Origin: Thiotrichaceae bacterium
Lineage (GTDB): Bacteria; Pseudomonadota; Gammaproteobacteria; Eutrophobiales; Eutrophobiaceae
DNA length: 49,352 bases
Reading direction: 5' to 3'
NCBI GenBank assembly: GCA_012960105.1
Contig: DUBV01000114.1
Location: forward strand, 1-49,352
Shown here: piece by piece, positions 7,624-16,133 of the stretch
Layout: each line of letters opens with the position of its first letter
Numbering within the stretch: position 1 is the stretch's first letter
The notes under the pieces: generated by a model
The model's database searches: none
Told to the model about the DNA's origin: nothing
What the model saw: the letters and a program-made list of their open reading frames with translations, nothing else
Program-made: the position numbers and the translations under genes

Positions 7624-8772
7624 CTATTCAAATAAAAGACGAACTTCATCTTTTAATCTATTGACAATACTTCCCTCGGAAATTGTTTCTAGCGCCAACA
7701 ACGGGACAGAAAATACATTCTCACCCAACAACGTGACATTTAAAGTTCCTTTCTGCTCTCCTTCATTTATTGGAGCAATCACTTGTTGATCAAGCTCAAC
7801 CACTGGTTCTAACTTATCATATTGACCGCGGGCAACTGTCACGTAAATATCATTTTTAATTCCGAGGTTTAGAACATCAACATCTGCCTTCCAGATTTTC
7901 ACACTAGTAATTAACTCACCAGCACTATAAAGCTTATGCGTTTCAAAAAATCGATAACCATAGCTTAATAATACCTGACTGGCTTTAGCTCTGGCATTGA
8001 CACCATCTGTCCCCATGACAACTGAAATAAGCCTCATACCATTTTTAACTGCCGAAGCAACCAAACAGTACCCCGCTTCTTCTGTATGCCCGGTCTTTAT
8101 TCCATCGACACTATGGTCGCGCCAAAGTAATTTATTACGGTTATGTTGTTTAATCTTATTAAAAGTAAATTCTTTAACTTTATAAAGTTTATATTCTTCA
8201 GGAAAATCTTTAATCATTGCTTGTGCCAATTTAGCTAAATCACGAGCAGTCGTATAATGGTTTTCATCCGGTAATCCGGTGCTATTTACAAAATGTGTGT
8301 CATGCATGCCTAAGCGTTGTGCATGCTTATTCATAAGATCAGCAAAAACATCTTCTGTTCCAGACACATATTCAGCCAGTGCAACGCTAGCATCATTGCC
8401 TGATTGAATAATGACACCGTGTAATAGGTCATTAAGTTTCACTTTTTTGCCAACTTCAATAAACATTCTTGAACCCTGGGTACGCCAGGCTTTTTCACTA
8501 ACCAAGACTTCATCATCGAGAGTTATTTTTCCGTTAACTAATTCACTCGAAACCACATAAACCGTCATCATTTTAGTTAAACTGGCTGGCGGTAATTTTA
8601 GTTCACTATTCTCTTCTACCAGTAACTTTCCACTATTAAAATCCATCACCAAATATGATGATGCTTTTATTTTTGGCGCCGCTGGCACTATCAATGACTC
8701 AGCTAAGAGCGACTGACTGTTAATAGAAAAAAATATAAATATAAATATAAATTTGCTTAATCTAGTAGTCAT
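7624..8772 (-). CDS. dacA: D-alanyl-D-alanine carboxypeptidase, PBP5/6 family
   Basis: DacA trims the terminal D-alanine from peptidoglycan pentapeptides in the periplasm. I choose ATG 8772 (382 residues) because it begins a standard signal peptide and avoids running into rlpA; a longer frame reaches 8862. Active-site motifs are S64-L-T-K67, S124-G-N126 and K226-T-G228. The C-terminal end (L-L-A-L-E-T and onward to R-L-L-F-E) looks like the amphipathic helix that holds these enzymes on the inner membrane. The signal peptide core is encoded by a hexanucleotide repeat (see separate entry). Ribosome site is weak; the gene is 16 bases after rlpA. Confidence 0.94.
   Translation of the reverse strand: MTTRLSKFIFIFIFFSINSQSLLAESLIVPAAPKIKASSYLVMDFNSGKLLVEENSELKLPPASLTKMMTVYVVSSELVNGKITLDDEVLVSEKAWRTQGSRMFIEVGKKVKLNDLLHGVIIQSGNDASVALAEYVSGTEDVFADLMNKHAQRLGMHDTHFVNSTGLPDENHYTTARDLAKLAQAMIKDFPEEYKLYKVKEFTFNKIKQHNRNKLLWRDHSVDGIKTGHTEEAGYCLVASAVKNGMRLISVVMGTDGVNARAKASQVLLSYGYRFFETHKLYSAGELITSVKIWKADVDVLNLGIKNDIYVTVARGQYDKLEPVVELDQQVIAPINEGEQKGTLNVTLLGENVFSVPLLALETISEGSIVNRLKDEVRLLFE
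8733..8750. repeat. Hexanucleotide tandem repeat in the dacA signal sequence
   Basis: Three exact copies of ATATAA (plus-strand view) plus partial flanks encode the F-I-F-I-F-I part of the DacA signal peptide. Change in copy number would add or remove an F-I pair without shifting the frame. Confidence 0.7.
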
Positions 8773-10668: not shown

Positions 10669-11760
10669 TTAAAATGAGAGAAAACGCCTATGAGTGTGTA
10701 CGGACATTATAATACCGAAACCTAGCATCAATGTTACCATAGAAGTTCCACCATGGCTGATTAAGGGTAACGGTACCCCAACTACAGGAAGCTGTCCGGT
10801 GACCATTCCTATATTGACAAAAACATAGACAAAAAAGGTTAAAGTCAGGCTACTAGCTAATAAGCGTCCGTAGGTGTTCTGGGCGTTAATAGCGATAAAC
10901 AGTCCACGTGAAATGATAAACAGGTAAACACATAATAATAACAAGACACCTAACATTCCAAATTCCTCGCAAAATACAGCAAAGATGAAATCTGTCGAAC
11001 GTTCAGGTAAAAATTCAAGGTGTGATTGCGTACCTTTTAACCAACCCTTGCCATAAAAACCACCCGAACCAATAGCAATCTTTGACTGAATGATGTGATA
11101 ACCCGCCCCTAAAGGATCCTCCTCAGGGTTCAACAAAGTTAACACGCGTCGCTTTTGATAATCATGCATAACATACCAGAGGATCGGCGCACATGCTGCA
11201 GCTAACACGCCCATAGACATTAATAAGCGCCAGGAAATTCCGGCAATAAAAAGCACAGAAAAACCAGCTGTCGCGACCAATAGAGCCGTACCCAAATCAG
11301 GTTGTTTAGCAATTAATAGGACGGGGATAAGTATCAACACACAGGTCATTAATACCCACGAAAATTTCGGCGGCAACGATTTATCAGCAAGATAAGAAGC
11401 AATCATCATCGGTACAGTAAGCTTCATTATTTCAGAGGGTTGAAAACGAAAAACTTTCAAATCTAACCAACGCTGCGCGCCTTTACCGACATCCCCATAA
11501 AAAATAACTAACACTAATAAAATAATACCAAAAATAAATAACCAGATAGACCAACGTTCAAGTATCGCCGGAGATAATTGCGCAATCATAATCATACCGA
11601 CAAAAGCAATAAGCAATTTTACAGCTTGACGATAAACTAACTGAATATCCTGTCCGCCCGCACTATAGAGCACAAGCAAACCAATCAAACATAAGACAAA
11701 AATAGCGAACAATAGAGGAAAATCTATATGTAAACGTTGTCCTAGACTCTGCTGTTCCAA
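10669..11760 (-). CDS. rodA: SEDS peptidoglycan glycosyltransferase RodA
   Basis: RodA polymerises lipid II into glycan strands for lateral wall growth, paired with PBP2. The 363-residue protein has about ten membrane segments and typical SEDS motifs: the W-x-x-x-K-x-F-R-F-Q-P-S-E entry to the long helix, K-Q-P-D-L-G-T-A near 149-156 with the key aspartate, Q-S-K-I-A-I-G-S-G-G-x-x-G-K-G, H-L-x-F-L-P-E-x-x-T-D-F-I-F, and the final L-I-S-H-G-G-T-S. Length is usual. It follows mrdA by five bases, keeping polymerase and transpeptidase together. Confidence 0.97.
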   Translation of the reverse strand: MEQQSLGQRLHIDFPLLFAIFVLCLIGLLVLYSAGGQDIQLVYRQAVKLLIAFVGMIMIAQLSPAILERWSIWLFIFGIILLVLVIFYGDVGKGAQRWLDLKVFRFQPSEIMKLTVPMMIASYLADKSLPPKFSWVLMTCVLILIPVLLIAKQPDLGTALLVATAGFSVLFIAGISWRLLMSMGVLAAACAPILWYVMHDYQKRRVLTLLNPEEDPLGAGYHIIQSKIAIGSGGFYGKGWLKGTQSHLEFLPERSTDFIFAVFCEEFGMLGVLLLLCVYLFIISRGLFIAINAQNTYGRLLASSLTLTFFVYVFVNIGMVTGQLPVVGVPLPLISHGGTSMVTLMLGFGIIMSVHTHRRFLSF

Positions 11761-13660: not shown

Positions 13661-14155
13661 TTAGGAAATATGATACTTACGACGTAAGTCTCTTAAGATT
13701 ATGAATAACCATGGCCACAACAACATACTTGTTATAGCAGGCATCCAATAAGTCCAATCACGACTACCCGTTCCTGAATAGCCCATTATCCACAACATAA
13801 TGAGTTCATAGAACAAGAGGTAAAAACAAATCAATACTGCCTGCTGAGCAAGAGGAAAAACTCGCATGCGTTGATAAGATTTAATAGTAAGAAATGCAAG
13901 TAAAGCAAGACCTAGAGCATTTTGGCCAAGCAAGGTACCTTGTTGTACATCCAGAATAAGCCCAAGAAACCAACCAATGGCAATGCCAACACGATCAGGA
14001 ACAGCCATGCACCAATACATTAAAACTAACGCGACCCAGGCTGGTCTCCAATTAACAGCCCAATCGGGTAAAGGTAATGCCATCAACATGACTGCCACAA
14101 CAAAACTCATGACAATTAAGCCGTTACCATAATTAGGTTCTTGTATAGGGATCAT
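13661..14155 (-). CDS. mreD: Rod shape-determining protein MreD
   Basis: MreD is an integral membrane partner of MreC in the elongation complex. The 164-residue protein is about 70% hydrophobic with five or so membrane segments, and has the family pattern R-P-x-W-V-A-L-V-L-x-Y-W followed by G-x-x-x-G-L-I-L-D-V-Q-x-G-x-L-L-G-Q-N-A-L, which is well conserved in proteobacterial MreD. Its ATG overlaps the mreC stop by four bases (ATGA), a sign of coupled translation. Confidence 0.94.
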   Translation of the reverse strand: MIPIQEPNYGNGLIVMSFVVAVMLMALPLPDWAVNWRPAWVALVLMYWCMAVPDRVGIAIGWFLGLILDVQQGTLLGQNALGLALLAFLTIKSYQRMRVFPLAQQAVLICFYLLFYELIMLWIMGYSGTGSRDWTYWMPAITSMLLWPWLFIILRDLRRKYHIS

Positions 14156-15030
14156 TCTATTTTATCCCCTATAGTTTCATTTCCAGTTGTACTTTTTGTT
14201 TCGTTAATATTTTTGTATGGCCAGACCATTAATACCTCTCGACTCTGACTCAATAGCGCACTAGGTTTAATGAGAACCTTCGCAAAAACTTCGCCTGGAT
14301 CTCGGGTAACTTTTTCAATCTGACCAACTGGATACCCCGAAGGAAATCGTTGCCCAAGACCAGATGAAATAATAAGATCACCGACACGTATATCCGCATT
14401 ATTAGTTAGGTTCTCAAGTAACAGTTTATTTCTTTGACCTGTGCCCACGGCAATGGCACGTAGACCATTTCGGTTAACCTGCACTGGCAAAGCATGATTG
14501 GGATCGGTAATTAATAATACCGTACTTGAAAATGGGCCAACATGAATAACTTGTCCCATGATACCTGCGGCATCAACTATAGGCTGGCCATCATAAGCAC
14601 CTTCACGCTGCCCCTTATTAATAACAATTTGCCGTCGGAATGATTGTAATTCAACAGCAACTAATTCAGCGACAAGAACTCGGTCATTAAGACGAAAAGA
14701 AGATTCCAGTAAATTACGTAAGCGTTGATTTTCGCTTTCGAGAATTTCGTATCGCTGCAGTTTAGAGTTAAGTAATAAGTGATCGCGTTTTAGCCGATCA
14801 TTTTCTTCTAATAAATTATTATGTGTGGCCAGTGAGACCGAAACCCATTCGGCAGCTTCGACAGGTAGGTTGACGATATACTGCAGCGGATAAACAAGTG
14901 TTGATAAAGCCGAACGAATAATTTTTAAATGACCTTGATTATGGTCAACAAACATGACCATAATTGAGAGAACAACAAATACGCCAAAACGAATGTTGAC
15001 GGAAGAGCTTCTTAGAAACAGGGTACTAAT
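14152..15030 (-). CDS. mreC: Rod shape-determining protein MreC, with probable ATT start
   Basis: MreC is a periplasmic scaffold that activates PBP2-RodA. I place the start at ATT 15030 (292 residues). The nearest ATG, at 14961, falls in the middle of the membrane helix and would delete its first half. The upstream codons, in frame after a TGA at 15036-15034, read I-S-T-L-F-L-R-S-S-S-V-N-I-R-F-G-V-F-V-V-L, the usual MreC N-terminus. A strong GAGGTGAT lies six bases (counted from GAGG) before the ATT, and no ATG, GTG or TTG exists in between. Then follow the helix (about 14-30), a coiled coil (about 72-115) and the beta domains. mreB stops 56 bases upstream. Confidence 0.88.
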   Translation of the reverse strand: MSTLFLRSSSVNIRFGVFVVLSIMVMFVDHNQGHLKIIRSALSTLVYPLQYIVNLPVEAAEWVSVSLATHNNLLEENDRLKRDHLLLNSKLQRYEILESENQRLRNLLESSFRLNDRVLVAELVAVELQSFRRQIVINKGQREGAYDGQPIVDAAGIMGQVIHVGPFSSTVLLITDPNHALPVQVNRNGLRAIAVGTGQRNKLLLENLTNNADIRVGDLIISSGLGQRFPSGYPVGQIEKVTRDPGEVFAKVLIKPSALLSQSREVLMVWPYKNINETKSTTGNETIGDKIE

Positions 15031-15086
15031 GTATCACCTCTTCGCCCTCAGTGATTATTCTGTAATCTTTAATTCAAAATTACTCT

Positions 15087-16133
<1,047 letters not shown>

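Follow-up and report, generated by a model that had tools for sequence, protein, structure and literature searches.

A probable near-cognate start codon for mreC, conserved in the order Eutrophobiales and found in many other gammaproteobacterial families

The start of mreC in a 49,352-nucleotide contig of a Thiotrichaceae bacterium (GenBank assembly GCA_012960105.1, contig DUBV01000114.1; the whole stretch is referred to as the window) raises the question of which codon initiates its translation. The identity of the gene itself is well supported. It lies on the minus strand in the order mreB-mreC-mreD expected of an mreC locus, and the genes after mreD look like those for PBP2 and RodA, judging by eye from the ORF translations. 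The protein matches the MreC barrel core PF04085 (E 2.2e-42, 144.7 bits against a cut-off of 28) and TIGR00219 (213.3 against a cut-off of 92.75). The expected short N-terminal tail and single membrane helix are also present, and are complete only with a start at an ATT codon. As a side observation, in the mechanical ORF list the first canonical codon of the gene reading as rodA (window 10669-11760) is a TTG. The features discussed below are the following.

15087..16133, minus strand: mreB, upstream partner gene with an ATG start, used as a control (PF06723)
15033..15040, minus strand: Shine-Dalgarno (SD) sequence GAGGTGAT, with six bases between its GAGG and the ATT
15034..15036, minus strand: in-frame TGA stop, which excludes any upstream start
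14152..15030, minus strand: mreC, 292 codons from ATT plus stop (PF04085, TIGR00219)
15028..15030, minus strand: ATT, very likely the start codon, read as initiator Met; aligned to E. coli Met1, and ATT, ATC or ATA (ATH) in 51/51 genomes of the order
15019..15021, minus strand: CTG, codon 4, a weak rival start not conserved as a start-capable codon
14959..14961, minus strand: ATG, codon 24, the first canonical codon and a rival start, which lies within the membrane helix and lacks an SD (SD energy +1.5)
13661..14155, minus strand: mreD, downstream partner whose ATG overlaps the mreC stop (PF04093)

The mreC frame runs from TGA (15036-15034) through TAC to ATT (15030-15028) and on to S-T-L-F-L-R, and no ATG, GTG or TTG occurs in it between that TGA and the ATG at 14961. 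An upstream canonical start in the window is ruled out by the same TGA. Counting from ATT, 23 codons precede ATG 14961, with a further ATG at codon 26. These 23 codons encode I-S-T-L-F-L-R-S-S-S-V-N-I-R and then most of the membrane helix; a start at ATG 14961 would leave approximately five helix residues and lower the best 17-residue hydropathy from 2.16 to 1.21. The initial annotation had proposed an ATT start, and its positions for the TGA, the ATT, the GAGG spacing, ATG 14961 and the 23 codons held in every detail, as did its claim that ATG 14961 cuts the helix.

Upstream of the ATT, GAGGTGAT has a duplex energy of -7.1 kcal/mol and sits at optimal spacing from position 15030, and a G-rich block at this position is conserved within the genus. 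The CTG at codon 4 (15021) is rejected as a start, as it lies approximately nine bases too far from the SD and is not conserved: a start-capable codon (CTG, TTG or ATG) occupies codon 4 in just 33 of 49 genes of the order and 25 of 95 genes of the class.

Alignment to E. coli points to the same codon. Read from ATT, residues 3-272 of the window MreC match residues 3-272 of the full-length E. coli MreC chain in PDB 7eft, and a Pseudomonas-like relative read from its ATC codon aligns its residue 1 with E. coli residue 1. Together these alignments equate ATT 15030 with the initiator Met of E. coli, where mreC has an ATG without a recognisable SD upstream. The N-terminal residues encoded upstream of the rival starts are conserved as protein across the class and align to the E. 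coli N-terminus without gaps. Hence ATT 15030 is very likely the start of mreC, a conclusion that is drawn from sequence comparison and not from protein, ribosome-profiling or reporter data. The proposed ATT start is thus supported by the E. coli Met1 alignment and the SD, and also by the relatives and the mreB control described below.

The window's family and its order comprise the same 53 genomes in the collection used here. The gene was found in 52 of these and its N-terminus in 51; one genome gave no match, and in one match the N-terminus was absent. At the homologous position, 39 genomes have ATT, eight ATC, and four ATA; none of the 51 has ATG, GTG or TTG. Codons -25 to +2 include no canonical codon in 49 of the 51, and 48 of these 49 genes have an in-frame stop at most 30 codons upstream of the ATH codon. 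In a second collection, ATH was found in 68 of 80 named loci, many of which are the same genomes as in the order set. Isolates with an ATH mreC include Halopseudomonas formosensis and Thiocapsa roseopersicina (L274, L278).

These data bear on the simplest rival explanation, a sequencing or assembly error at one base. A single change would indeed yield ATG, but independent genomes including isolates carry ATH, as do 51 of 51 genomes in the order, and error, like chance, is excluded. The check that had been proposed, looking for ATG at the homologous codon in close relatives, came out the opposite way (0/51), and base error was excluded through the relatives' sequences. The implied oddity of a single genome was too narrow a view, as the arrangement holds throughout the order and occurs in roughly half of the genomes sampled from the class. 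Separately, two metagenome assemblies titled Klebsiella pneumoniae (CAMDWI010000008.1 and CAMBTO010000031.1; L212, L215) hold an mreC approximately 63% identical to that of the window with an ATT start; the species label of both looks wrong.

The wider distribution was assessed in an even draw of 276 class genomes, 251 of which had a match, 248 of them outside the order. The analysis drew on N-terminal DNA from 206 of the 248, namely all 147 listed matches and 59 of 101 unlisted weaker matches, and 15 further class genomes from a draw across the phylum brought the total to 221; one match at a contig end (L328) was left out. The aligned codon is ATH in 110 of the 221 genomes and in 67 of 134 families, including Pseudomonas. 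It is ATG in 31, GTG or TTG in four, and GTT in four; the remaining genomes have other codons there, their start being located elsewhere. A canonical codon occurs within codons -25 to +2 in 15 of the 110 ATH genes, leaving 95 genomes from 60 families without a canonical alternative. In 85 of these 95 an in-frame stop lies at most 30 codons upstream. Nine more class genes were scored as forced ATH at a codon adjacent to the aligned one, a few of these calls being doubtful, and inspection by eye placed ATC three codons upstream of the aligned place in L065, L081, and L083.

The frequency of ATH drops with distance from the window, from 90 of 147 among the better, listed matches to 14 of 59 among the weaker ones, so the class sample leans towards the window's relatives. 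No forced ATH was found in 22 genomes from other classes of the phylum, counted after setting aside two class duplicates (L287, L288), and the N-termini there align poorly. A different codon was seen in a Halioglobus sp. MAG (L184, L250), in which a GTT preceded by a strong GGAGG takes the place of the mreC start and no canonical codon is available instead. It is possible that this is a GUU start like that of Streptomyces sigR.

The SD sequences distinguish ATH genes from their ATG counterparts. Ambiguous ATH genes with a nearby canonical codon were excluded from these comparisons and from the tree counts below. Mean SD energy at ATH mreC is -8.1 kcal/mol in the order (n=49) and -7.1 kcal/mol in the class (n=95), against -3.3 kcal/mol for mreC with ATG at the same codon (n=31). 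An SD at -5 or better is found in 92% of ATH genes in the order and 88% in the class, versus 29% of ATG genes. This contrast is strong when kinship is not corrected for (p=2.5e-8). A kinship-aware comparison of five well-supported pairs gave on average 3.5 in the same direction versus 0.2 in the opposite direction, with a median sign-test p of 0.25 reflecting the few independent changes. In most genes the SD and the ATH codon are 5-8 bases apart. The first canonical codon downstream has no SD, with energies of -0.97 and -0.63 for the order and class, respectively.

Neighbouring genes served as controls. The mreB genes of the same loci have a canonical start and an ordinary SD (mean -3.1 kcal/mol). 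Nine mreB loci were flagged for lacking a canonical codon within one codon of the aligned place; by eye, seven of them have one two codons upstream, while L287 has TTG three codons upstream and L319 has ATG seven codons upstream. The start of mreD is mostly canonical, though its N-terminus is often not alignable, with an ordinary SD (mean -3.2 kcal/mol). A conserved leader hairpin as an alternative means of control was rejected, as RNAalifold on 14 sequences gave -0.63 kcal/mol with no compensatory pairs and hence no conserved leader structure.

A second rival holds that the true start lies downstream, at ATG 14961 or CTG 15021 in the window or at GTG codon 17 in Pseudomonas, with the upstream codons translated rarely or not at all. 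Support for it comes from P. aeruginosa. Record CP123788.1 reads TAG-GAG-CGG-ATC-ATC-AAA-CCG around codon 1; codon 1 of a relative matches from position 219 onwards, whereas the start annotated for mreC is a GTG at 267, 16 codons later. This record (L384) is a linear piece of 1131 bases filed as a P. aeruginosa plasmid, with parts of mreB and mreC, and is presumed to be of chromosomal origin. A published study of P. aeruginosa MreC names residues R175, E188, and R190, and states that the first 14 residues hold the cytoplasmic and membrane parts (PMC8137920). Counted from ATC, the corresponding R, E, and R are 191, 204, and 206 in CP123788.1 and six Pseudomonas-group relatives. The constant offset of 16 suggests that the published numbering starts at GTG17, within the membrane helix. 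This is probable but inferred from the offset only, as the relevant passages do not discuss the start. Against a downstream start stand the protein-level conservation of the upstream residues and their gapless alignment to E. coli, an SD that is placed for ATH and absent downstream, a membrane helix that would be cut, and the lack of conservation of codon 4 as a start. A downstream start is therefore very unlikely and ATH remains the preferred reading, and from its sequence CP123788.1 very likely annotates mreC 16 codons too short.

A further question is whether the ATH codon is merely tolerated. Any start codon is read as Met. On an MreC protein tree of the order, built with codon 1 omitted, nine changes occurred among ATT, ATC, and ATA and none to ATG. 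Given equal third-base targets, the probability of nine changes all avoiding G is ~0.03, a modest test. A FastTree of 179 genes from the order and the class gave 40 changes from one ATH codon to another and 14 between ATH and canonical codons; the deep branches of a tree from this single protein are unreliable. As ATG is only one base away and the start is always Met, the persistence of ATH indicates selection on initiation rather than on the residue. The choice among ATH codons gave no uniform signal, since, with expectations taken from internal Ile codons, ATA starts are too few in the order (four observed, 10.1 expected) and too many in the class (24 observed, 9.4 expected). ATA enrichment as proof of a non-Ile reading was dropped on this mixed result.

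The remaining rival is that ATH is a true but neutral start, in which ATG was lost by drift and a strong SD compensates without any special control. Compensation predicts a strong SD with ATH and a weak SD with ATG, as seen, and the 14 changes between ATH and canonical codons show that exchange occurs. Conversely, a single base separates ATG from each ATH codon, yet nine changes within ATH and no ATG were seen in the 51 genomes of the order, although the avoidance of G is only modestly significant. Neutrality is still possible. It is more likely that selection on initiation has kept the ATH codon of mreC, with the caveat that the order alone provides a modest test.

Under selection on initiation, the following mechanism is proposed. 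AUU 15030 would start mreC translation with formyl-methionine, with the strong SD placing the 30S subunits. The near-cognate start would be old and selectively kept; within the order it moves between AUU, AUC, and AUA without reaching AUG, and many gammaproteobacterial families, Pseudomonas among them, share the arrangement. On the mreBCD message, AUU would probably render mreC initiation inefficient and expose it to discrimination by IF3, such that MreC may be made in limited amounts relative to MreB, varying with IF3 activity. The position of the start, its conservation, the absence of AUG, and the strong SD are shown, being read from sequence alone, whereas IF3 dependence is argued by analogy without reporter or protein data. 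Overall, a selected near-cognate start with weak and probably IF3-sensitive initiation is the likely reading, its lower output, IF3 dependence, and purpose being inferred. The "throttling" suggested by the initial annotation is consistent with the pairing of a strong SD and a weak codon; IF3 control of mreC is an inference only.

The expectation of weak, IF3-sensitive initiation rests on analogy with infC and sigR. IF3 destabilises initiation complexes at codons other than AUG, GUG, and UUG (PMC5472188). The infC gene starts at ATT or ATC and is autoregulated by IF3, while Streptomyces sigR starts at GTC, or GTT in a few species, and is repressed by IF3 (PMC5472188). In the window genome, infC (L281, C115 ~7875-8378) appears to start at an ATC preceded by GGAGG, and the frame contains no canonical codon from the upstream TAA to this ATC. 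This acts as a positive control, indicating that an AUH-type start is in use in this genome. As in infC, a near-cognate AUH replaces AUG in mreC, no canonical start is available, and the codon is conserved among relatives. Unlike infC, mreC codes for no initiation factor; a feedback loop is therefore not expected, and control would be one-way. With sigR, mreC shares an extensive SD beside a non-canonical start, genus-wide conservation, and misannotation at a canonical codon. IF3 repression of sigR lowers one operon product relative to its partner, as is proposed for mreC. The two differ in that sigR uses GUC rather than AUH and is confined to one genus against many families for mreC, and in that IF3 dependence has not been shown for mreC. 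E. coli pcnB starts at AUU and, like mreC, is not a translation-factor gene; in the window genome the pcnB frame (L282, C6:1689-2957) opens with ATG directly after a stop, unlike in E. coli.

Bacteria very rarely have conserved AUH starts, and those characterised so far are regulatory. The open-access PMC literature searched, which does not cover subscription papers or preprints, yielded no report of mreC starting at a non-canonical codon. The kind of mechanism is already known; the membership of mreC, its breadth, and its place in the elongasome are likely to be new. A bolder reading, possible but less likely than not, is that mreC and infC belong to a gammaproteobacterial IF3-controlled set in which an elongasome scaffold is dosed by initiation fidelity. 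If so, cell-wall elongation in much of the class would be coupled to the condition of the translation machinery, and this would have stayed hidden because gene finders ignore AUH starts.

If the ATH start holds across these families, the dose of MreC would be set at initiation. At least one P. aeruginosa record would also have MreC annotated with the cytoplasmic tail and part of the membrane helix missing and, judging by residue numbers, the same N-terminal truncation would affect a published structural study from that species. Other genes with such starts may likewise be missed. For cell-wall biology, the mreC start gives a direct way to ask whether IF3 controls cell shape.
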